Part shown: positions 7,630 through 47,752 of the stretch, piece after piece
Numbering within the stretch: position 1 is the first letter of the stretch
Layout of the letters: each line of letters starts with the position of its first letter
Source of the DNA: a virus
IMG/VR virus record: IMGVR_UViG_3300021379_000808
Span: 1-50,602 of that record
DNA length: 50,602 nt
Direction: 5' to 3' (one strand)
The notes under the pieces: generated by a model
What the model was told of the DNA's origin: nothing
Database searches by the model: none
Seen by the model: only the letters and a program-made list of their open reading frames with translations
Made by a program: the position numbers and the translations under genes

Positions 7630-9110
7630 CTAGCGAGTCTCCTTGGAGAAAAATGCACCGTAACGCCATATAGCGTGTGAACAGAGTCTGTGGCGGACGT
7701 TGAACTCATAAGAATTGCAAGGTTCTTACCTACTAAACTCAAGCGGACCCTAGCGTCGTGGTGATACACAGAGTCCCAGTAAAACTGATCCCATACCGCG
7801 AAATCCCATAGCGCACCATTAGTCTGCCCTAGAGAGCCTGTGGAGCCTCTAGAGTAAAGACCTTTGCCGTAGTCGGTGGTGCCGCTTACCGCCAGATTCG
7901 TTGAGTCCCCGTCTACCGACAGGTCTGGCTGTATCATGCGGAATCGCTTGTATTGCGATGGAGATCCGTGATGGTGAAAGCTAGTTACAAGGTAGGCGTA
8001 AATTTCCTGCCCAGCAAAGTTTGTGCCCACCTCTAGCTGGTAGACATTGCCATCATCAGATCCAAAAAAAGATACAGGGGCGTTGTTCGGGAATAGCCCT
8101 TCACAAGCGCACTCAACAGAGTGCTCGTAGGCCACTCGCATAGCGCCAATCAGTTCGGTGCCTGCAAAGGTAAAGTACAGCCCCTGACGGCCATTATACA
8201 GTCGATATTGACTAGACGCACGACTAATTACTGCCAAAGACCCCAGCGGGAAGTTGCTCATATACGAGGCAATCTTCTGGCTCAAAAGGGCATACGAAAA
8301 ATTACCGTATGCTTGAGTCGCAGTCAGGCTCATTACACCTTGCTGATCGAGGCCGATAATCTGGCCGCCAATATTCGCCATTGTCTTTGGATAGGGACCG
8401 ATCTCTGTCATCGTGTCCAATCGGAAGTTGGCGCTGGTGTCCCCTGAGAGGAGCTGTGTCTTGTTCTCAGAGCCGACAATCAAAGCACTGGGCGCCGCCA
8501 TAAGGTCGGTAATTGTGTCCCCTACGGCAACCTCAAAGGCGTTTTGAACGGGGTCATATCCCGATGGATTCCCCGGCTCACTTGCTACCAGACTAGACTC
8601 TACGCCCAGAAATAGCTGGGTTCGATATCCGGCAACGCACGAAGGGTCATCAGTGCCTACGCCGGTCGTTATCTGGGTAAGCGTAGTCCCATCAAAACGC
8701 ACTGCCTTATCAACCCCATTAACGATATACATCTCTTCCTGAGCGTCTTGCCCAAAGAAGTTGTAGTTGACGGCCCGGTAGTTTCCTCCAACTGACCACG
8801 TAAAGGTGTTATCAACCTCTGACCAGCCGGAGGTGGTGGCCTTGTATAGTCTAGCGGCGGAACCATCCTCGCGAATTGCGTAAAGCTCGTTCTTGTAAAC
8901 GTGTACAAGAAGGACAGAGCCCGTACCGGGTACTGACTGAGAAGCAGTAGCCTGCCCATCATATAAATCATAACCGTAAATCCGACGATAACCGCCACCA
9001 ATAAGGCACTCGTAATTAGTAGCATCAAGGACTTCACCCGGCTGAGTAGCAAGCGGTGGAGCTTCAATGTTCCATCCTCCAATTAACGGGAAGTAGCTTG
9101 GTGTAATCAT
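7626..9110 (-). CDS. Tail hub / DNA-stabilisation-like virion protein
   Basis: 494 residues, beta-rich, no signal peptide or membrane segment. The N-terminus (SYFPLIGGWNIEAPPLATQPGEVLDATNY) is typical of proteins that plug the short tail in podoviruses, similar in size to P22 gp10 (about 470 residues). Repeated short beta segments with GxxY and DGTTL patterns suggest a propeller-like fold. It overlaps the adaptor gene on one side and the fibre on the other by four bases each. Function is assigned from position between adaptor and fibre, and from size. The exact family is not certain. Confidence 0.5.
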   Translation of the reverse strand: MITPSYFPLIGGWNIEAPPLATQPGEVLDATNYECLIGGGYRRIYGYDLYDGQATASQSVPGTGSVLLVHVYKNELYAIREDGSAARLYKATTSGWSEVDNTFTWSVGGNYRAVNYNFFGQDAQEEMYIVNGVDKAVRFDGTTLTQITTGVGTDDPSCVAGYRTQLFLGVESSLVASEPGNPSGYDPVQNAFEVAVGDTITDLMAAPSALIVGSENKTQLLSGDTSANFRLDTMTEIGPYPKTMANIGGQIIGLDQQGVMSLTATQAYGNFSYALLSQKIASYMSNFPLGSLAVISRASSQYRLYNGRQGLYFTFAGTELIGAMRVAYEHSVECACEGLFPNNAPVSFFGSDDGNVYQLEVGTNFAGQEIYAYLVTSFHHHGSPSQYKRFRMIQPDLSVDGDSTNLAVSGTTDYGKGLYSRGSTGSLGQTNGALWDFAVWDQFYWDSVYHHDARVRLSLVGKNLAILMSSTSATDSVHTLYGVTVHFSPRRLAR

Positions 9111-25817: not shown

Positions 25818-26014
25818 TACTTTTCGCTTACCGGCTGAGTGGTCATGAATCGCAGTACCACAATGCCTGATGCAATCGCGCAACCGATGAAGGCCTGCAC
25901 TGCCGGGTTAGCCGGGATAAAGCCCACGAAGCCCTGAAGCACTGACAGCACCGCAATCGCTACGCCGTACTGAACCGTCCGAGATTTTAGTGCCTGTTTA
26001 ACTGTCATCACCAT
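25817..26014 (-). CDS. Small two-helix membrane protein, holin candidate
   Basis: 65 residues. Two hydrophobic segments (VQYGVAIAVLSVLQGFVGFI, then VQAFIGCAIASGIVVLRFM) are linked by a short turn (PANPA), with a positively charged N-terminus (VKQALKSR) and polar tail. Size and topology fit class II holins. It lies two genes before the GH24 endolysin. Starts at M1 (26014) or M3 are both possible, which could provide a dual-start lysis timer. The alternative holin is the 152-residue protein at 23384-23842. Confidence 0.6.
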   Translation of the reverse strand: MVMTVKQALKSRTVQYGVAIAVLSVLQGFVGFIPANPAVQAFIGCAIASGIVVLRFMTTQPVSEK

Positions 26015-26295
26015 TTCACCTTATGAGACCAATACCGAGCGCTCAGCTTGCTAGGGTTAGAGTCCTGAGCATTGTGCCGGGCGTAGTAGCTTTTCCGACG
26101 CGCCTTATCCTTGGCCGTCTTTGGATTCTTGCCAGCGCCTTTGACCCCCTGTTGCCCAAAACGGATCGTCTTGACCTGATCGCCTTCCTTCGCGACCACG
26201 ACGTGTGACTTGGTTGGGTGATTGGGTGTGCGCTTTGGCTTGTTAACGCCAGACACGCCTGCGCGCTCAAGCAGACCTTTGATGTCTCTTGCCAT
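26008..26295 (-). CDS. First late gene: 95-residue basic protein
   Basis: ATG at 26295 (MARDIKGLLERAGVSGVNKP) lies only 12 bases after a terminator T-tract, with GCGGAA as a weak ribosome-binding site. The protein is very basic (KPKRTPNHPTK, KNPKTAKDKARRKSYYARHN) with a central beta part. Similar small basic proteins are frequent in phages, but I know no function. Position at the head of the late operon and charge suggest DNA binding, by inference. Confidence 0.6.
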   Translation of the reverse strand: MARDIKGLLERAGVSGVNKPKRTPNHPTKSHVVVAKEGDQVKTIRFGQQGVKGAGKNPKTAKDKARRKSYYARHNAQDSNPSKLSARYWSHKVKW

Positions 26296-26466: not shown

Positions 26467-26495
26467 TTGACACAGTAGCGCTACTCGATTACGGT
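26467..26495 (+). promoter_or_regulatory. Early plus-strand promoter with palindromic operator
   Basis: TTGACA (26467-26472) and TACGGT (26490-26495) are 17 bases apart. The spacer contains the perfect palindrome AGTAGCGCTACT (26474-26485), an ideal place for a repressor dimer to block RNA polymerase. It would drive the accessory operon that begins with the type III hammerhead. The -10 is weak, so the exact start is uncertain. Confidence 0.55.
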
Positions 26496-26519: not shown

Positions 26520-26653
26520 GCTGGCTACGAGGAGCCCAGACCCAAACCCTGCGGGAGACAACCCACCAAACCGGCGACCACTGAGTCAACCAGTGAGAGA
26601 CGACACCAAACGAGCACGATGAGCACCACCACCGGAGACGGCGTGGGAACATA
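26520..26653 (+). other. Untranslated leader of the accessory operon
   Basis: No supported gene lies between the promoter and the first ribozyme. An 11-codon frame at 26619-26654 (starting MSTTTGDG) lacks a good ribosome-binding site. A short hairpin CACTG/CAGTG occurs near 26578-26594. The whole control region from 26338 to 26725 therefore holds promoters, palindromes and RNA structure but no confirmed protein. Confidence 0.5.
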
Positions 26654-26705
26654 GCGTCAACACCTAATGCGAGGTGTTCTGATGATGGCCAGCAGGCCGA
26701 AACGC
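26654..26705 (+). ncRNA. Hammerhead self-cleaving ribozyme, type III
   Basis: In order: stem III 5' strand GCGU (26654-26657); cleavage nucleotide C17 (26658, triplet GUC); stem I AACACCU/AGGUGUU (26659-26665 with 26672-26678, 7 bp, loop AAUGCG); core CUGAUGA (26679-26685); an extra U (26686); stem II GGCC/GGCC (26687-26690 with 26695-26698, loop AGCA); core GAAA (26699-26702), whose last A starts stem III 3' strand ACGC (26702-26705). All core bases of the hammerhead consensus are present and every stem is perfectly paired. Opening through stem III makes it type III. Predicted cut is between 26658 and 26659, leaving a 5'-OH RNA 67 bases before the first start codon. The U after CUGAUGA is non-consensus. 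Confidence 0.85.
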
Positions 26706-26725
26706 AAAACAACGGAGTGTTACCA

Positions 26726-26911
26726 ATGCAGACCTTTGTATGCAAGGGTCGAGCGGGTAAGTGGTCCTACGGTTACCTTGCCGAGCCCGGCAAGCGAAAC
26801 GTGTGGGTGTACACCAACGGTGAGGTCACATACCGACCGCTTGGTGGAAACAACTTGATGGCCGCTTCAAGCGAAGCCACCACGTTGCACCGCAACTCGC
26901 TCGAGTCCTGA
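26726..26911 (+). CDS. 61-residue protein, first gene after the type III ribozyme
   Basis: ATG at 26726 follows GGAGTGTT at 26713-26720. The protein is small, basic/aromatic and beta-rich (MQTFVCKGRAGKWSYGYL; NVWVYTNGEVTYRPLGG) with a Ser/Thr-rich tail. No known family. It may be an early host-takeover or anti-defence protein, considering that it shares its operon with ArdC. An upstream TTG at 26717 would overlap the ribosome-binding site and is rejected. Confidence 0.7.
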   Translation: MQTFVCKGRAGKWSYGYLAEPGKRNVWVYTNGEVTYRPLGGNNLMAASSEATTLHRNSLES

Positions 26912-26982: not shown

Positions 26983-27429
26983 ATGACTACAAAAACATTG
27001 AAGCAAATCAACGCAGAACTCGCAGAGACCTCAGCCCAGCTCGAAGCTTTGGCGGATGTCCTGAGAGAAGCTAAGCAACACGTAGCTGACAAGACCCGGG
27101 AGGTCAGAGAGCTGGAGCGTTCAAGAACCGAGACGGCAGAGCGTGAACGGCGCAACTGGGTGAATCGCAACCGCTCGAAGGCCAAGCGATTAGCGGCCAA
27201 GTACGGTATCGAGATCGAGGACGAGTCGATCAGAGACTACGATGGATATGACCTGCGCCACTGGGTAGGTCAGCCAGACTGGCTTGAAGGTGACGACCCG
27301 CTCACAGATGGTCACTTCAGTCACTGCTGGAGCGACACTGTTTGGCTTGTCGAGTTTTACGCCAAGCATCACCCATCTCACCCAGATCACGAGAACCGTG
27401 AGCACAGGGTTCATAGCCCTCACTGCTAA
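26983..27429 (+). CDS. 148-residue coiled-coil protein
   Basis: ATG at 26983 follows GGAGTGTT. Residues about 4-60 are coiled coil (LKQINAELAETSAQLEALADVLREAK), then a basic helix (RRNWVNRNRSKAKRLAAKYG). The C-terminal half is Asp/Trp/His-rich (YDGYDLRHWVGQPDWLEGDD; HCWSDTVWLVEFYAKHHPSHPDHEN) and may bind metal. No known family. Its stop codon is one base before the type I hammerhead, so cleavage would trim its mRNA 3' end. Anti-defence or host-takeover function is inferred from context only. Confidence 0.7.
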   Translation: MTTKTLKQINAELAETSAQLEALADVLREAKQHVADKTREVRELERSRTETAERERRNWVNRNRSKAKRLAAKYGIEIEDESIRDYDGYDLRHWVGQPDWLEGDDPLTDGHFSHCWSDTVWLVEFYAKHHPSHPDHENREHRVHSPHC

Positions 27430-27430
27430 A

Positions 27431-27485
27431 CCCGTCTGACGATGGCTGGAGGGATACCAGCCGAAACGCCTCCGGGCGTCACGGG
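27431..27485 (+). ncRNA. Hammerhead self-cleaving ribozyme, type I
   Basis: In order: stem I 5' strand CCCGU (27431-27435); core CUGACGA (27436-27442); extra U (27443); stem II GGCUGG/CCAGCC (27444-27449 with 27457-27462, 7-base loop); core GAAA (27463-27466), its last A opening stem III ACGCC/GGCGU (27466-27470 with 27475-27479, loop UCCG); C17 (27480, triplet GUC); stem I 3' strand ACGGG (27481-27485). All three stems are perfect and the conserved core is complete apart from the extra U shared with the first ribozyme. Opening through stem I makes it type I. Predicted cut is between 27480 and 27481, separating the coiled-coil gene from ardC and leaving a 42-base ardC leader. Confidence 0.88.
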
Positions 27486-27522
27486 AATCCACCCGACAAC
27501 ATACAAAAATTTGGAGTGTTTT

Positions 27523-28383
27523 ATGACTAAGAAAAAAGTTGATGCCTATCAGGTAATCACGGACAAAGTAATCGCGATGCTAGAGACTCACGGGTCAGGC
27601 TGGACTAAGCCTTGGTCTGACAGCCTCGCAGGATCGCCTGTAAGCCTTTCCACCGGCAACCCCTATCGAGGTATCAACCGACTGCTACTCGGCCTTGAGG
27701 GACGTTCTGATGCGCGCTGGGGCACATACAAGGCTTGGTCAGAGAAGGGCGGTCAGGTTCGTAAGGGCGAGAAGGGTACTGCGGTTATCTTCTTTAAGCC
27801 CTTAGAGATTCGAGGTGATGACGGTGAGGTCGAGAAGAAGATCCCCTTTGCCCGTATATACAATGTATTCAATGCCGAGCAAGTTGACGGTATCGAATTG
27901 ATCCAACCTGAAGAGCTGACCCCCATAGAGTTAGATCAGCGTTGCGAGGATTTCATTGCCGAGACTGCCGCGCAAATCCGATTTGGTGGTGACTCTGCGT
28001 TCTACTCCCCGGTTGTCGATTACATCGGTATGCCGAGACCAGAGGCCTTTGAGTCTACTGCCGGTTACTACGGCGTCCTACTGCACGAGCTCACTCACTG
28101 GACTGGTCACTCTACCCGGTGCGACCGCAAGATCCTCAATAGCTTTGGTAACGAGGACTATGCGTTCGAGGAGCTGGTTGCCGAGCTAGGCGCCACCTTC
28201 CTTTGTGCCGATTTAGGTATCGAAATAGAGCCCCGCGAGGATCATGCACAGTATATCGCAAGCTGGCTCAAAGCGCTACGAAACGACAAGAAATTGATCG
28301 TTAAAGCGGCCAAGCAAGCCCAGCTCGCAAGCGAGTTCTTGCACGGCCTCCAAACAGAAAATCAACTAGCAGAGGCCGCATAA
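27523..28383 (+). CDS. ardC: ArdC-like antirestriction protein
   Basis: 286 residues, close to ArdC of plasmids (about 300). The N-terminal domain (about 3-115) has the ArdC pattern: YQVITDKVIAMLETHGSGWTKPW, NPYRGINRLLL, WGTYKAWSEKGGQVRKGEKG, and binds single-stranded DNA in known members. The C-terminal domain is a zincin-like metallopeptidase with HELTHWTGH (His188, Glu189, His192) and a downstream EELVAELGA. Such proteins protect incoming DNA from restriction. ATG at 27523 follows GGAGTGTT. The ribozyme cut lies 42 bases upstream and a hairpin encloses the stop codon. Confidence 0.88.
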   Translation: MTKKKVDAYQVITDKVIAMLETHGSGWTKPWSDSLAGSPVSLSTGNPYRGINRLLLGLEGRSDARWGTYKAWSEKGGQVRKGEKGTAVIFFKPLEIRGDDGEVEKKIPFARIYNVFNAEQVDGIELIQPEELTPIELDQRCEDFIAETAAQIRFGGDSAFYSPVVDYIGMPRPEAFESTAGYYGVLLHELTHWTGHSTRCDRKILNSFGNEDYAFEELVAELGATFLCADLGIEIEPREDHAQYIASWLKALRNDKKLIVKAAKQAQLASEFLHGLQTENQLAEAA

Positions 28384-39634: not shown

Positions 39635-42600
39635 TTAGCCAGCGCGGTCCTGCATGAATTCATCGTACCGCTTGTTGAAGCGATCAACGATATCGTCCTT
39701 GCTTTCCCTTAGCGCTTCGAGCTGTTGCTCTCTATCGGCAGGCGTTAGGTCGTCTCGATCCCGTATTCTCATCTCACGCTCGCGGATACGACGCAATCGC
39801 TTATAGACGTTATTGGCTTTTGGATACAGCGTTCGTATTCCATTAAAGCCTTCGTCGCTTGCCTTTCTTGCATTAGAGTCAGGCGCGTCATTGTATTCCT
39901 TGCGAGCGTTGATAATCTCCTGTCGCCTTTCGTAGAAGGTGTCGATGTCTCCGTAGTCGGACTGATCCTTACCAACAAGAACCCGAGCAAACGGCACATT
40001 AGCGATCTCCAACTGCCTGCCAGTAACGGGCCTAAATATAGAGTCGCCTGTACCTGTGGCCGTTCTCAATAAACCGCCGCCTGCGTACTCGATAATCTGC
40101 TGTAGAGTCTCTGGGCTAACGTCTGTAGAAATGCCCATAAGCTCGCCAGATCTGTACTCAGATCCGCCGCCAATAACGTCATTAAGGAACTGAGCCACCT
40201 GAACATAAGGCTCTTTGGTTGAAGGCCAGTACAAGTAAGCATCCGCCTTCTGTGCTCCGCCGGGGAAGTTTTCTGGGTAAATCTTCTCACCGAAGTAGTT
40301 AGTGTTTACTGCAAGCTCAGTGACCGGAAGCACAATGCTTGGGCTTATCGTTAGTGCCGCCTGAGCCGCCGCATTTTCCGCCCTGTGCAGACTGAACGGG
40401 GAGAACGACGTTGTGAAGCTAGACACCAAATCGCCAAGAATATTATCCCTTCTGCGCTGTGATCCTTTGAGCGCACCTTCCACCGAGTCGCCAAGATTCC
40501 AGAAGAAGTTGTAACCGTAGGGCAAGGGTAGCTTGTAGTAATCCCCGCCAGATCCGGGCTTCATAATGATGAGATTTCTTTCTCGTATGCCTGCGGGGAT
40601 CTTGTCCCAGAAAGCTTCGCCATCATCATCCTCACCACCCACTTCTCTCATTAGAGAAGCAAACCCAGCTCCGCCAGCAACAATGCCGCCAGCTATCTTC
40701 TGGGCTAGGTTTAGATTTCTCTGCACCTGAATGTTTCCTTGGCTGTTGACCTGAAGAGGGCTCAGTGTCCGCAAGAACTGAGTGGTTCCCTGAACTGCCG
40801 CGTTAAAGAACATATATAGCGAATTAACGAATGTTCCTATCTCGCCCTTGCGGTTAAAGTTCACCGTCATATTCTTGGCTAAGGACGCCGCCTGCTTGCG
40901 AGCAACGCCTGCCTTCCTAGCCTCGATATAGGCCGATAGTCTGACGCCGTTTTCTACTGCGCTGTTGTATTTCTCAACCAGCTCAGCAATCTTAACGCCA
41001 GCCTTCATCAAGTCATTCTTGGTGCCGGGGCCAGCTCTGCCTAGCTTCTTCTCTAGATCTGCGGCAATTGTGTCAACATCTGGAGAGTCAAAGTAACCAG
41101 TCTTTGCGCCGTCGTTAAGAAACTCTTGGTAGTATCGACGATACTCAGTAGCTTCTGGGTCAGAGTCGTCATTAACGGCATCTTGCTTATTGGATGATCT
41201 GATTGCGGCAATAGCCCTTGGCGTACCTGAGACAACTTTACCAGCAATCTGATTACCGTCTAACTTCCCGCCATCCATAGTGGCCTCTGCCATTAGATTC
41301 AGCGCCGCCGCCTGAATATCACGGGCGAAGTTCGTGACCACAAACTGAGGGTTGTATGAGGTATTAACAGATGCCAAGAACCGGGTCATCCCAGCAACAA
41401 CCTTGGTTACTGCGCTCAATCGCTCAGGACCAACATTCTGCATTGCATTAAGCAGTCGCTGATCCTTGACCTTGATGTAATGGACAATGCCATCCCGCTT
41501 GACTGCGTAGTATTTGTCTGACCCTGCCATATTGACCGGACCCTCTCTAACACTTCCGTTACGGAACTGCTCCTCAGTGTCCGGGTTTGCGTCAGTAAAG
41601 ACTTCCCACATATCAGGATCTGGGTTGCCCTCAACAAGATTAAGGAAGGTCTGGCCGACCTCGTTCTTCCTGTTGCGGATGGTCTTCTCTGTGAGATCCG
41701 CAATAACCTGAGATGTTGGGCTCTTCGCTTTGGATCTTCGGCCTAGTGCGCGGCGCGACTCTTTGCCTCGTATGTCAAAGCCCCTGCCTGTTCTAATTCT
41801 ATTGCCGTTAGAATCAACCTCGTCGTCAGCGAATCCCCGCAATGGGATGTAGTTTTCATACATACTCTCCCAAGAACTAACCTCCTCATCCGAGGCTAAG
41901 CCGCCAGACTTAATAAGATCTCGCGTAAGCTGAGTCATTGCGTATACTTGATTGGCAAGTTGGTTGTAGTCTGCCAGCTTCCCGGATCTCTGTACGCGCT
42001 GTATAACCTCTGCCGCTTCAGCGTTAGTCATACCTGAGCCACCGTCAGGTAGCTTGTCATTGATTGCCGCAATCTTACGGTTACGCTCTGGTGCGTGACG
42101 AGCCATCAGGTACTCGTCTAGATCGGCAACGCTAATGCCAGTCTTCTCAAGTAGCTCGACAAACGGACGAATCAGACGAACCTCTAGCTGTCGCAAGTCT
42201 TCTTCGGTCTTACCGTAAAAAGCCTCTTCCGCTAGGTAAGCGTCCTCGTCAAAGTCCAGCTTGCGCTCTTGCGTTTCCTCAATGAACTGCTGAGTGCGCT
42301 TGAGGCCGACCATTTTGTCTTGGAAGGTGCGGATGAATTTATCAGCAATAGTCTCTTCAGGCGGTCGCTTAGGGTAGATTCTCGCCGAGTCCCGCTGGAA
42401 CATTGGCAATCCTTCCTCTGTAACCTTCTGCTTAAACTCATCAGAGATAGGTGCGGCCCAGCCACGAATGCCTGCATCCTGCATGAGCTTCATTCTGAGT
42501 TTTTCTTCAGCTTGCTTTCTTGCGACCTCTACACCTTTGTCGGTGTAAATGTCCATAAAATCAATAGCAAGATAGTCGCTATTAGAAGGGAAAGTGACTG

Positions 42601-45600
42601 AGAAAGTGATCCTGTTGTTGTCGGAGTATTGGTCTCTGTATTTAATCTCTGCTTCGCCTGCGACCTTTAAAGCGTTCTCGTAAGCGGCAGTCGCATCAAG
42701 ACCCTGAACATCCACAGGGTAAGGCTTAACGCCGAGAAGCTTTCCTATCGCGCTAACGTGCTTCTTGTCATAAATCTGCTCGTAGAATCGGCCCCAGCGA
42801 TTGTTCAGCTGAGCGGCGCTTGAAATCATCAAGGCATCCTTGCCCTCCTCCACTGCGGTGATAAGCATCCGCTTGAGAGCAAGCTCCGCATAACGATCTT
42901 CAGTAAAGGGTACGTTTGGTGGAGCGCTTTGTGAATTGGCAAGCCTTCTTCTCGCGTCATCACGAGCCTTAGATTTCTTTCTGTTTTCGACCTCTAGACT
43001 TGCAAGTTCCCGCAGAAACCTATCAAGGTCTGGCTCAAGATCAGTAACCTCTTTAATGCTTCCTAGGTACGTTGCCGATGAAGAGTAGCTAATGTCCTTC
43101 CCCTGAAGCTCATCAGCAAAAGCCTGCCTAGCAATGCGTAAAAAATTATTGTAACTAGGAGTTGGATCTAAAATTCCCGGAGCATCCATTCTGCTCACCC
43201 CAAACAGATCCCCAACAAGCTTGGACACATCAGGGCTCAATAGCAATGCTTTTGCATTCTCCGCTACTGTGTCAATTCTCATTTGCGTACTGGCCATATC
43301 CAAGTCGATTTCATTAAGGGCTTTTTCGTCCCTATCAACCCTAGCCTGATCTCTTGGCCCTCCAGCTCTGCGGATATCACTCTGCCAATCAGACTGCATC
43401 TCCTCGATCATGAGGACATTGCCTAGCGCATTACGTCTATCGGTAGCGAGGACATTAAAAAGTGCGTTTTGCCCAAAGTGGCTTGAGTAGTATTGGCCCC
43501 ACTTGTTGTCAATGGTTGTAACAAACTCCCGGTACTGATCCCAATTCTCTTCTTTGACATCACTCAAGTAGTCTAGAAACTGGACATCATCTCCAGTGGC
43601 TACATACCCATACTCGTTAAGGTAGTTTTGAACCTGAACCTTGGCTTCGTCTAGGTCATAAACAATATCAAAATCACCCGTTTCTCCTCTCTCTGGGGTT
43701 ATTTGAATGCGCCAGCCCATATCATCGCTTCCTGAAATTTGGGCGTATCTGATCCCATCAACATCGGTAAGCAGATCAACGGTGGTGTATGGATCTGAGT
43801 TTATGTAGTCCTCTCGCGCAGTAACCCAAGCAACTTCGTCAATTTCGTTTTCAAACTCTGCCGCCAATTCAGGGTAAACTGTTTTTGCTCCAAGCTCCTT
43901 CACAAAAGAATAAACACCAGCCTCAGCGAACGACCCCCTGCTTAGGTATTCTTCTTGGGCTCTCGCGGTCACATCCTCATCGAATACGCCGCTTGATAAA
44001 AAGTCATAAACCTTTTGCTGATTTTCAAAAATAAAGTTGCTAATTACATCGCCAGCTCGACCCGCAAAGTCGCCCTGCTTTATCTCGTACTGGATGTCAT
44101 CCCAGATATACTCGTAGTATTCCTCGCTGTCTTGTATTTCAGGCTCACTGTACTCTAGCCCATCTTCGCTAATCTCAAATCCAGCCTGAGTTGTGGACTC
44201 AACGTCCTCCTCTAACTGTGGCGCCTCATCCCGCAAGAACTCAATCACCTCATCGCGAGTAAAACGACGGCTGGGGTCTTCGGTTAGGAACTGCTCAATC
44301 TCAGTGTACTGAGCCTCATCTTTTTTGATGCCCTTCCCTTTGAGGAAAGAAAAGATCTGGTCTCCACGAACGCTGGCGTCTGGGTTTTTCTTTGAAGGCT
44401 TAAAGATTTTATCGCCTTGGTCAATGATGACCTGCTCAGTGTTGGAGTACAGCTTTAGAGGGGTTTGCTTTGCTCTGGTGCGCTCGCCCATAATAAATGA
44501 TGGACGACCCTCTTGAGCGTTAGTCTGGTTGTTTAAAAAATTGTTCCGAGCTCTTTTTGCTACTAACGAAATATCACTTGCTCGCATACGCGATAGCTTC
44601 AAGAATGTGTTGTTGCGGAACCACTCGCGGATAGCACCAATAGCCTCGCGGGTACGTTGCTGTAACTTCTTAGAACCCTGCTGTCCTGTGTAAGCAAGCA
44701 TCTCGTTCACAAGAACTGCGTTGCGAGTATCTTGGTCTAAGCTGGAACCTTTCATTCCGCTAATATAAGGGCGCACATTAGCCTCAATGCCAAGCTCTCT
44801 AGCCAGCTTATCAAAGCCTTTCTGTCCACCCATTGCGGTCCACATACGATTCAGCGCTTTGTTGACGCCCTGATCTCGGTACATATCCATCACGCCGCCG
44901 TGAGTGCCTTCGTGTAGAAGCGCCTCTTCAACCTGCGATTCAGTCGCGAGCTTACCCTTGACGAGGTATACTGTCCCTCTATGGTAAACCGCGCTAATGT
45001 CCGCTCCATCGGAGCCCTGATCTCTTGCCGCTTGCTGGATTTCTTCCGGAAGCTCCGCAAAAGAAGAGCGCACGTCTACTCGATTACGGGCATCCCCGTC
45101 CTGACCGACGACCCTATCGAGGACAGAATTGAATTGTTCATCGTTGATGACGGGTCTTCGAGTGGCTCCTCTCTGGAATGAAGTGTCTAAACCTCCGTCT
45201 TCCTGAATGCCTCCAATCTCTGCATCACTACCTGTAGCTTGTCTCTCGCCGAAAGCTTCAGCTCCGGTCTGATCTCCAATGGGCGGCTGTAAAGTTGCTC
45301 TTCCTGATCCCTCGTTAAACGATTCAACATCTCGCTCTTCGGATTCGACAAGGCTTGCTTCTTGGGTTGGCTCTCTTTGCGATCCATAGCTGGCATCAAA
45401 AGACTCCTGATAATATTGGTCAACGAATGCTATTTCGTCGTCAGTTAATGGGCCGAACTCATCCTGAAGCTCAATAAGAGTTCGTGATATTTCTTCCTGC
45501 TCAACTTCTAAGCTAGGAATATCCGCTCTGCTATCGCCAACGAATACGCGATCATTAGACTGGATGGCCGTTGTGAAAAGATCCAAGACTTCGTTGGCTG

Positions 45601-47752
45601 TTGGGCGCTCTGGGAAGAAGCCATTTTCCGCAAGCTTCTCTCCCATATCATCAAAGCTCAGGCCATTCCTTCTTACGGGTCTTGCCCGTCCTGAGTAGCC
45701 CCTAAATGATTCTGGGTCTATACCCTGAGTAATCGCCTCGTCAGTTTGTATGCCGCCAAGTCGAGCGATTGCCGTTAGAACGTCAGTGTCTTGTGCGCTA
45801 GTTGATCGTGGGGGCACTTCCTGAGCTTGCTCAATGCGATCCTCAATCTCGATTAAGCGCGACTCCATCTCTGGTGCAGATGCCGCCTCATATGATTCTC
45901 GGAGTCCCTGCGTTGTGTCGCGAATCTCAGGCTCGGGCTGTGCCGCTTGATTAGTTTGGTCAATAAAGTTATTAACCGACTCAGGGTTTGCCTGTCTACG
46001 CTCGCGTCTGAATCCAGCAAGCGCAAAGCGCTCTGTGTTTGGATCTTGGAATACTTCCCAGTTGAACCCCGGCTCCGCCTTCTGACGGCTCTTCATTGCC
46101 GCGTCAGCGCCCTTTCTGGTAGCAAAGCCATCACCCCTAGATCCTTGGTAAATCGTGTCTGGAGCGCCTTCTATGGGCTCCTGATAGATGACGTTATCTT
46201 GGGTTAGAAGTGGGCGACGTTGAGTCCTAACTACTGGACCTTGCTCGACGTATGAGGCATCGAAATTAACGTCTGTGTCTGCGGTTATGACCGGCCCTTC
46301 CAAGGGCTCACTTGGATCTCGAACAGGAGGCTGACGCAAGAACTCCTGAGACATCTCAGTGCCGACAATCGCGTTAGCTCGCTCAATGAGTCTGGCTCGC
46401 AAGCCCTCATCTGCTGTGCCTTGTGCGCGGTCATATATAGCTTGTGCGTTGCGGAGGCGAGTGGCTCGCTCTGGCTGGTTTACCCTATCGGCGAAAAGTA
46501 TCTCTTCTGTTAAGTCAAAGGGTAACTGGGGAACTTCTTGCTGGGGCTGGAAAGGCGCTGGCGTAACAATCGGTTGGAAGGGTGTTGGCTGTAGCGTGTC
46601 CTGATCGAACTGATTAGCAAGCTCCGGTAGCTGTATTGTGGAAGGAGCTGGCTCCTCGATATTCATACGCTCGCGAAGAGCCGAAAGGTCTGTATTAGCA
46701 AAGCCTCCAGATGCGGCAGTCGCGGCATCGAGATTGTCGCCGCCGTTGGCTACTGCATCTGCTCTAGCGGCTTCTGCGTTTTCGCTGGCCTCCTGCATTG
46801 GAGAGGAGAGCCCAGCAACACCACCGCCCAGTATGCCTCCACCAAGCGCGCCAAGACCCGCCGCCTGACCGACGCCCTCAAAAGTTTCCCGCGTTGGGTC
46901 AATAGGCTGTACGGCAATGTTTCCTGCAATCTGACCGCCGCCTTCTTCAAGCGTCTCTTGCAGTGACTCGCTACCGGCGCCCTTCAGAGCGCGAGAGAAA
47001 AATCCATCGCCTTTAACGCCGCCTCTGGCTAGGCTTCTTTCGATAGTGTTCGGCAAAACACCAGCAGTAACGCCAGATATAACTCCAGATATGCTGGCCG
47101 CTTTGCGCGAGGCATCAAGGGCGATCTCATTCTTTGCTTCTTCTCTACCCACTTGGTCTGATAAAGCAATGAAGTCTGCGTTTTGATTCCAGATATCATC
47201 CGGCAATGCCTTGAGGTCGTCGAACACACTCCCGCCAACATCGCCAGCTTGCAGTGCGCCGCCAGTAACCACACCGGCTCCAGCGCCAACTCTTGCAGAT
47301 TTCGTTAGAAGAGATGCCCCCTTCGCAACAGCACCTCCGGGTACTGCCATTGGAGCCTGCTCAAGAACAAAGTTACCAAGTAGATCAAGATCGCTAATAG
47401 TTCCCCAAACAGCCTCGCCTGCCTTTGCAAGCTGACCATCAGCAGAGTCAATGCGAGCTTGAAGATCGGCCTGCTTCTGCAAAAGCTCGTCAGTCTTAAA
47501 TTGCTCGTAAAACTCACGTCCACGCTCCGCTTGGCGAGTGGCCATATTGTCCATATCGCCAGATACAAGACCATACAGACTACCCACAGAACCAAGGAGA
47601 TTGTTTGCGCCTATACCGAATGATGCAAAAATATTGCTTTTAAAGGGCTCGGGCTCAGGCTGAGCTTCAAATTCGTCAAAGAACCCGCCATAAGGGCTGT
47701 TGCTAGATGGTCCGTCGAACTCATCAAAAAAACCGCCGTACTTGGCCATCAA
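39635..47752 (-). CDS. 2705-residue polyvalent virion protein
   Basis: 8.1 kb. Starts with two GGFFDEF repeats, then Gly/Ala hydrophobic helices (about 130-320; VSGVITSGVTAGV-like stretches) that could insert into membrane. A zincin motif LLHEGTHGG lies at about 944-952. Regions near 535-560 (GDGFATRKGADAAMKSRQKA), 1090-1190 (KGIKKDEAQYTEIEQFL) and 1440-1700 (LMIEEMQSDW; EGKDALMISSAAQ) fit large polyvalent-protein domains of phages. The part from about 2110 on (SVNTSYNPQFVVTNFARDIQAA; NRKGEIGTFVNSLYMFF; YKLPLPYGYNFFWN) resembles the LPD38 module. Such proteins are carried in the virion and enter the cell with DNA. Ends at attP. Confidence 0.75.
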   Translation of the reverse strand: MMAKYGGFFDEFDGPSSNSPYGGFFDEFEAQPEPEPFKSNIFASFGIGANNLLGSVGSLYGLVSGDMDNMATRQAERGREFYEQFKTDELLQKQADLQARIDSADGQLAKAGEAVWGTISDLDLLGNFVLEQAPMAVPGGAVAKGASLLTKSARVGAGAGVVTGGALQAGDVGGSVFDDLKALPDDIWNQNADFIALSDQVGREEAKNEIALDASRKAASISGVISGVTAGVLPNTIERSLARGGVKGDGFFSRALKGAGSESLQETLEEGGGQIAGNIAVQPIDPTRETFEGVGQAAGLGALGGGILGGGVAGLSSPMQEASENAEAARADAVANGGDNLDAATAASGGFANTDLSALRERMNIEEPAPSTIQLPELANQFDQDTLQPTPFQPIVTPAPFQPQQEVPQLPFDLTEEILFADRVNQPERATRLRNAQAIYDRAQGTADEGLRARLIERANAIVGTEMSQEFLRQPPVRDPSEPLEGPVITADTDVNFDASYVEQGPVVRTQRRPLLTQDNVIYQEPIEGAPDTIYQGSRGDGFATRKGADAAMKSRQKAEPGFNWEVFQDPNTERFALAGFRRERRQANPESVNNFIDQTNQAAQPEPEIRDTTQGLRESYEAASAPEMESRLIEIEDRIEQAQEVPPRSTSAQDTDVLTAIARLGGIQTDEAITQGIDPESFRGYSGRARPVRRNGLSFDDMGEKLAENGFFPERPTANEVLDLFTTAIQSNDRVFVGDSRADIPSLEVEQEEISRTLIELQDEFGPLTDDEIAFVDQYYQESFDASYGSQREPTQEASLVESEERDVESFNEGSGRATLQPPIGDQTGAEAFGERQATGSDAEIGGIQEDGGLDTSFQRGATRRPVINDEQFNSVLDRVVGQDGDARNRVDVRSSFAELPEEIQQAARDQGSDGADISAVYHRGTVYLVKGKLATESQVEEALLHEGTHGGVMDMYRDQGVNKALNRMWTAMGGQKGFDKLARELGIEANVRPYISGMKGSSLDQDTRNAVLVNEMLAYTGQQGSKKLQQRTREAIGAIREWFRNNTFLKLSRMRASDISLVAKRARNNFLNNQTNAQEGRPSFIMGERTRAKQTPLKLYSNTEQVIIDQGDKIFKPSKKNPDASVRGDQIFSFLKGKGIKKDEAQYTEIEQFLTEDPSRRFTRDEVIEFLRDEAPQLEEDVESTTQAGFEISEDGLEYSEPEIQDSEEYYEYIWDDIQYEIKQGDFAGRAGDVISNFIFENQQKVYDFLSSGVFDEDVTARAQEEYLSRGSFAEAGVYSFVKELGAKTVYPELAAEFENEIDEVAWVTAREDYINSDPYTTVDLLTDVDGIRYAQISGSDDMGWRIQITPERGETGDFDIVYDLDEAKVQVQNYLNEYGYVATGDDVQFLDYLSDVKEENWDQYREFVTTIDNKWGQYYSSHFGQNALFNVLATDRRNALGNVLMIEEMQSDWQSDIRRAGGPRDQARVDRDEKALNEIDLDMASTQMRIDTVAENAKALLLSPDVSKLVGDLFGVSRMDAPGILDPTPSYNNFLRIARQAFADELQGKDISYSSSATYLGSIKEVTDLEPDLDRFLRELASLEVENRKKSKARDDARRRLANSQSAPPNVPFTEDRYAELALKRMLITAVEEGKDALMISSAAQLNNRWGRFYEQIYDKKHVSAIGKLLGVKPYPVDVQGLDATAAYENALKVAGEAEIKYRDQYSDNNRITFSVTFPSNSDYLAIDFMDIYTDKGVEVARKQAEEKLRMKLMQDAGIRGWAAPISDEFKQKVTEEGLPMFQRDSARIYPKRPPEETIADKFIRTFQDKMVGLKRTQQFIEETQERKLDFDEDAYLAEEAFYGKTEEDLRQLEVRLIRPFVELLEKTGISVADLDEYLMARHAPERNRKIAAINDKLPDGGSGMTNAEAAEVIQRVQRSGKLADYNQLANQVYAMTQLTRDLIKSGGLASDEEVSSWESMYENYIPLRGFADDEVDSNGNRIRTGRGFDIRGKESRRALGRRSKAKSPTSQVIADLTEKTIRNRKNEVGQTFLNLVEGNPDPDMWEVFTDANPDTEEQFRNGSVREGPVNMAGSDKYYAVKRDGIVHYIKVKDQRLLNAMQNVGPERLSAVTKVVAGMTRFLASVNTSYNPQFVVTNFARDIQAAALNLMAEATMDGGKLDGNQIAGKVVSGTPRAIAAIRSSNKQDAVNDDSDPEATEYRRYYQEFLNDGAKTGYFDSPDVDTIAADLEKKLGRAGPGTKNDLMKAGVKIAELVEKYNSAVENGVRLSAYIEARKAGVARKQAASLAKNMTVNFNRKGEIGTFVNSLYMFFNAAVQGTTQFLRTLSPLQVNSQGNIQVQRNLNLAQKIAGGIVAGGAGFASLMREVGGEDDDGEAFWDKIPAGIRERNLIIMKPGSGGDYYKLPLPYGYNFFWNLGDSVEGALKGSQRRRDNILGDLVSSFTTSFSPFSLHRAENAAAQAALTISPSIVLPVTELAVNTNYFGEKIYPENFPGGAQKADAYLYWPSTKEPYVQVAQFLNDVIGGGSEYRSGELMGISTDVSPETLQQIIEYAGGGLLRTATGTGDSIFRPVTGRQLEIANVPFARVLVGKDQSDYGDIDTFYERRQEIINARKEYNDAPDSNARKASDEGFNGIRTLYPKANNVYKRLRRIREREMRIRDRDDLTPADREQQLEALRESKDDIVDRFNKRYDEFMQDRAG

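Follow-up and report, generated by a model that had tools for sequence, protein, structure and literature searches.

Prophages are known to carry tandem hammerhead ribozymes placed around small genes and anti-restriction genes; the original study demonstrated that these cleave in vitro as well as in E. coli (Perreault et al., 2011, PMC3088659), and the arrangement has since been restated in review. In Agrobacterium tumefaciens a triple hammerhead array surrounds ardA, and pseudoknots between stems I and II are known to be needed for speed (PMC3088659). The role of hammerheads in phages has been described as an open question (PMC6155905). Here we analyzed a stretch of 50,602 nt, hereafter the window, which is a whole IMG/VR record of an uncultured phage of probably marine origin. 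A first-pass annotation had placed a consensus type III hammerhead at the head of an accessory operon. We found that the element at 26654-26705 is a real hammerhead that is neither quite canonical nor alone. The assignment to a leader is upheld, but a second hammerhead 0.8 kb downstream had been overlooked, and its presence shifts the likely meaning from removal of a leader to cutting of the operon block by block.

Anatomy of two hammerheads in one accessory operon

The features of the region are as follows.

26467 to 26472, plus strand: TTGACA, a possible -35 element of the rightward accessory operon, proposed from the sequence only and kept in loci L128 and L083
26530 to 26653, plus strand: 5′ leader, almost unchanged in the closest relative, G001, by direct comparison
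26654 to 26705, plus strand: type III hammerhead ribozyme with an extra U (26686) after A9 and a predicted cut at 26658/26659 (sequence, relatives, descriptor and covariance model)
26668 to 26670, plus strand: loop I UGC, with GCA of loop II (26692-26694) as its predicted partner (loop-complementarity test)
26726 to 26911, plus strand: ORF1, 61 aa, no family, the first gene between the ribozymes
26983 to 27429, plus strand: ORF2, 148 aa, without an assigned function; other hammerhead contigs hold weak relatives at about 29% identity
27431 to 27485, plus strand: type I hammerhead ribozyme with an extra U (27443) after A9 and a predicted cut at 27480/27481 (descriptor and covariance model R1)
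27452 to 27455, plus strand: loop II GGAU, predicted to form a pseudoknot with AUCC at 27487-27490 of the 3′ tail (loop II-tail complementarity)
27482 to 27495, plus strand: CGGG-AAUCCA-CCCG, a hairpin predicted to open the ArdC message once it is released and to compete with stem I (terminal-hairpin permutation test)
27523 to 28383, plus strand: ArdC-like anti-restriction protein with ArdcN and MPTase-PolyVal domains (Pfam, ribosome-binding motif)

The type III element reads GCGU-C-AACACCU-AAUGCG-AGGUGUU-CUGAUGA-U-GGCC-AGCA-GGCC-GAA-ACGC, and on re-reading the sequence we found its reported box coordinates to be correct. Stem III is formed by GCGU (26654-26657) and ACGC (26702-26705; 4 bp), with C17 at 26658 right after its first strand, stem I by AACACCU (26659-26665) and AGGUGUU (26672-26678; 7 bp), and stem II by GGCC (26687-26690) and GGCC (26695-26698; 4 bp), with the core boxes CUGAUGA at 26679-26685 and GAA at 26699-26701. 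The order of the boxes and the GUC site predict cleavage between 26658 and 26659. This position, the type III class and the location in a leader, all proposed in the first-pass annotation, are supported by the anatomy, the relatives and the model search. In describing a consensus form whose stems are all perfect, that annotation was right about the boxes and the GUC site but missed U26686, which lies unpaired between A9 and stem II. Moreover, stem III has only 4 bp, and nearest-neighbour energies place the minimum free energy of the 52-mer in a rival hairpin (CGUCA:UGAUG, -19.2) that is 2.2 kcal/mol better than the hammerhead (-17.0). In the type III elements of relatives the minimum free energy structure is the hammerhead, and the rival hairpin is absent.

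The second element, CCCGU-CUGACGA-U-GGCUGG-AGGGAUA-CCAGCC-GAA-ACGCC-UCCG-GGCGU-C-ACGGG, is of type I and sits in the gap that separates the ORF2 stop codon (27427-27429) from the ArdC start codon (27523); its stems are of 5/6/5 bp, and those of the type III element are of 7/4/4 bp. Both elements contain the C3U4G5A6N7G8A9 box and G12A13A14, an A15.1-U16.1 pair with an H at position 17 (GUC), and three helices in the correct order. Stem II starts directly after A9 in neither of them, as an extra U intervenes at 26686 and 27443; a direct start is a usual but not a defining feature of hammerheads. Tertiary contacts between stems I and II are common in hammerheads, and they are predicted in both elements (UGC:GCA and GGAU:AUCC), with an excess over shuffles across each set of elements. 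In the type III set, loop I-loop II complementarity was 2.42 pairs versus 1.84 in shuffled loops, with 1 of 500 shuffles as high, and in the type I set loop II-tail pairing was 3.45 versus 2.45, a value that none of 500 shuffles reached. The type III contact UGC:GCA of the window is replaced by UCU:AGA in L088.

The arrangement of short boxes could in principle have arisen by chance, and no Rfam hammerhead is reported for either element even at an E-value of 10. Against this stand the rarity of such elements in random sequence, their conservation in relatives and matches to independent models. A descriptor scan that demands the core boxes and three stems gave two matches in the window, with scores of 38 and 43, both at gene boundaries, while a score of at least 38 occurred once in 12 Mb of dinucleotide-matched random sequence searched on both strands. 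Covariance models trained on other phages and excluding the window family recovered the type I element at an E-value of 9.6e-18 (R1) and the type III element at 1.1e-9 (R2). Stem pairs covary in both the type I and the type III alignments; this weighs less than the model matches, since the members of the alignments were picked by a descriptor that demands stems. We therefore regard a chance origin as extremely improbable.

Around the ribozymes, the search for a consensus sigma-70 promoter found none, the TTGACA at 26467 notwithstanding, and the transcription start, and with it the roughly 155 bases of removed leader in the first-pass annotation, is provisional. The palindrome AGTAGCGCTACT (26474-26485) directly follows this hexamer, is kept in L128 and nearly kept in L083, both of which share a half-palindrome with the window, and could possibly be the operator of the rightward operon. 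Within the leader, a short frame, ATGAGCACCACCACCGGAGACGGCGTGGGAACATAG, runs up to the ribozyme. The leaders of two more distant loci (L406 7570-7630 and L088 3870-3800, minus strand) share GCTGTATTGCAGGC...GACCGG...GTGGGAACC or a close form of it, and the window leader repeats part of this motif. At the other end of the block, the longest ArdC frame opens at 27442, within the ribozyme, but the Pfam matches (PF08401, E-value 2.8e-29; PF18818, E-value 5.3e-50) lie wholly downstream of 27523, where an ATG is preceded by GGAGTGTT, the same ribosome-binding motif that precedes ORF1 and ORF2. These signals indicate that the real ArdC start is at 27523. Elsewhere in the window, positions 26006-26250 show conservation at the DNA level of 70-84% in Roseobacter, Puniceispirillum, cyanophages and many viral contigs, the frames within them being without a family, and an uninterrupted frame of 2705 aa spans positions 39635-47752 of the minus strand.

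The extra U after A9 and the reach of Rfam

Searches with the core pattern including the extra U indicated that this form is widespread in phages. Among the matches listed for viral contigs, 114 of 124 proved to be complete hammerheads of type I or III; the corresponding figure for bacterial genomes, in which chance matches are commoner, was 51 of 125. With a pattern neutral to insertions, exactly one extra U was found in 27 of the 32 elements that could be parsed and none in four, and several of the unparsed matches have a bulged purine one base pair later. Among isolated phages, Flavonifractor phage Castelnaud also has an extra-U hammerhead (L379 1214-1282, plus strand), which lies opposite an annotated hypothetical gene that may be a false gene call. 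Two type II-like elements were also observed, one with the extra U (L138 13484-13601, minus strand) and one with A replacing C3 (L140 380-640, minus strand). In a limited selection of the hammerhead literature we found no mention of an extra-U class in phages. The 114/124 and 27/32 counts rule out decay or sequencing error as the general source of the extra U.

Even if the extra U is tolerated in general, the type III element of the window itself could be decaying, made slow or dead by its extra U, its short stem III and the competing hairpin, so that only the type I element would be at work. Consistent with this, the type III element of a relative lacks the extra U and has a stem III of 6 bp, the minimum free energy structure in the window is not the hammerhead, and certain core insertions (A6a, 2a/2b) reduce activity (PMC3088659). 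However, the extra U is common in phage hammerheads that appear intact, and as summarized in a later source, the plus-strand hammerhead of Chrysanthemum chlorotic mottle viroid, CChMVd(+), tolerates an extra A at the same position, between A9 and G10.1, and is active, with trans-cleavage becoming 3-4 fold faster when this A is changed to U (De la Pena and Flores, 2001, via PMC3705267). In addition, the element and its leader are almost unchanged while the flanks differ by 10-20%, and the UGC:GCA loop contact is retained. We consider decay of the type III element unlikely; the extra U is most likely a tolerated and common phage variant.

The check proposed in the first-pass annotation, a search with the Rfam hammerhead models, failed for both elements: RF00008 and RF00163 matched neither at the gathering threshold nor at E-values up to 10. 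This reflects the models rather than an absence of ribozymes, since a canonical type III element in L088 scores 45.7 bits against a threshold of 48.5, and Rfam reports none of the 70 type I matches that model R1 finds in 15 other contigs. In these same contigs Rfam does report two pistol ribozymes and one RAGATH-5 RNA. Rfam screening thus misses a large share of phage hammerheads, and censuses or functional studies that rely on it are incomplete, as the 0/70 figure indicates.

Exchange of the bracketed genes and a model of operon cutting

The closest relative of the window is contig 3300032086_002329 (G001, loci L082/L128), which has both hammerheads at the same places. Its type III core reads CUGAAGA-GGCC, and its type I core, CUGAUGA-GA-GCUGG, has a bulged A in place of the U. 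The genes between the two ribozymes are unrelated in the two phages: homology stops at 26721, 16 nt past the type III element, and restarts at 27429, 2 nt before the type I element. Two further relatives, L083 and L085, match the window on the left as far as 26484 and again from 29265, and have neither ribozymes nor ArdC there. In more distant loci the order is leader, type III, ORF, ArdC and type I (L088) or leader, type III, two ORFs, type I, ArdC and type I (L406). Across these layouts, then, the gene content varies but the ribozymes stay where they are. In L406 the type III element (7703-7786) has an expanded stem II region, with about 44 nt between the core boxes, perhaps an inserted domain. 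We found no relatives of ORF2 in isolated phages, and none in viral contigs when searching with the ORF1 protein or the exact ribozyme sequence.

We propose that two cis-acting hammerheads cut the accessory-operon transcript at 26658/26659 and 27480/27481 and so make its gene blocks separate messages, a reading to which we assign a probability of roughly 80% from the sequence evidence. Self-cutting of the early transcript at both sites would set the leader free and leave ORF1-ORF2 on a message of 822 nt and ArdC on another, and each 3′ product would begin with a 5′-OH and a terminal hairpin. Ends of this kind generally stabilize bacterial messages. In the type III product, stem I itself would be the terminal hairpin, with no further help needed, whereas in the type I product the tail CCCG would refold onto ACGGG, which would also separate the cleavage products. 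Each gene block could then act as an independent message with its own stability or translation. Such a model fits the exchange of a block between retained ribozymes.

The refolding proposed for the type I product has counterparts in other type I elements, where, after the cut, the tail is able to form a hairpin with the 3′ strand of stem I (AUGGG...CCCAU, GCGG...CCGC and GUAG-GAAA-CUAC). Among 180 distinct type I elements, the mean free energy of the post-cut terminal hairpin was -4.06, versus -2.65 with permuted tails, and a hairpin of at least 4 bp was present in 66% versus 43%. The outer two pairs, given the inner ones, formed in 47% versus 34% of cases (1 of 1000 permutations). The effect is real but modest, and it overlaps with selection on the loop II contact.

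Alternatively, the released leader could be the main point, as a discrete small RNA, about 155 nt long, with a regulatory role in the host or the phage, and message separation would then be secondary. The leader at 26530-26653 is near-identical in G001, whose flanking coding DNA is only 80-90% identical to that of the window. It shows no significant folding (z = 0.08), however, and on this basis we rejected a structured leader RNA; in isolated phages it has no relative beyond a weak, chance-like match, and the second ribozyme before ardC would be left unexplained. We therefore find this alternative doubtful.

A different possibility is that the elements act mainly as DNA, as short conserved repeats for cassette exchange, and that RNA cutting is a side effect. 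The breaks in homology 16 and 2 nt from the two elements are in keeping with it, as is the recurrence of a small gene family beside a hammerhead in several blocks. Breaks are also commoner at hammerheads than at other intergenic gaps of the same contigs (mean per-site fraction 0.82 versus 0.54), which is support rather than proof, since the contigs were selected by hammerheads and many are related, so that the tests are not independent. Yet the structure, the core and the loop contacts persist although the sequence changes, which homology alone would not require, and the type III and type I elements have little sequence in common. A primarily DNA-level role thus seems improbable to us, and we retain the cutting of the transcript as the preferred reading.

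The recurring family consists of small proteins with the pattern MYYI...EGSxWHIR...GKLVKTG and no assigned function (L128 3272-3487, L247 1063-1275 and L406 8103-8309). In these hammerhead-selected contigs, almost all loci with the family have it close to a hammerhead, either 3-10 nt ahead of the element or 22-35 nt past it, the exception being L137, where the adjoining type I element has an A bulge and was not accepted by the descriptor; the family was absent from the isolated phages and plasmids searched. Hammerheads occur at three of 17 ArdC loci, one of which (L380) was itself obtained via a hammerhead query, and this count rules out an obligate link between ArdC and hammerheads. Hammerheads also come in arrays of five to eleven, each spanning a few kb, in L228 (828-3678, minus strand), throughout L267 and L269, and in L148 (203-3671, plus strand); the L228 array is interleaved with two pistol ribozymes, and an array in L336 with a RAGATH-5 RNA. 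In such arrays nearly every gene seems to be separated by a self-cleaving RNA.

More broadly, and tentatively, at less than even odds for the claim as a whole, phage hammerheads may be the ends of interchangeable cassettes, cutting at the borders to supply a 5′-OH and a hairpin that make inserted genes autonomous. The hairpin would form only after cutting in type I and be stem I itself in types II and III, and the dominant form would be the extra-U one, hidden from Rfam surveys. The close phage pair is a natural experiment in this respect, with the same ribozymes and leader and different genes between them, and it provides a concrete model.

Comparison with described hammerheads

The core of the window elements agrees with the RF00008 and RF00163 families in CUGANGA/GAAA, the A15.1-U16.1 pair, the NUH site and three helices, and differs from them in the extra U between A9 and 10.1 and in the absence of an Rfam match at E-values up to 10. 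One extra nucleotide between A9 and 10.1 is shared with CChMVd(+), but there it is A10 in an element of viroid replication, whereas the window elements have U and lie in a phage leader and an intergenic gap. In the ArdC-bearing phage MW202801, which is among the three ArdC loci with a hammerhead and was obtained via a hammerhead query, a type II hammerhead (RF02276) directly follows a block of ArdC and a small ORF; it differs from our elements in its type II topology and in having been found by Rfam.

The closest parallels are the prophage arrays of Perreault et al. (2011), in which, as here, phage DNA carries hammerheads of more than one type on either side of small genes and an anti-restriction gene. 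The two same-strand hammerheads around ORF1-ORF2 repeat that arrangement, and the proposed role, cutting of a polycistronic message, is the same, with cleavage demonstrated there and predicted here. Tandem phage hammerheads that flank anti-restriction genes are therefore already known (PMC3088659), and the present locus is a variant of them: its anti-restriction gene is ArdC rather than ArdA, both of its elements carry the extra U, the block that they bracket has been exchanged between close relatives, and a hairpin may form at the 5′ end of the message once it has been cut.
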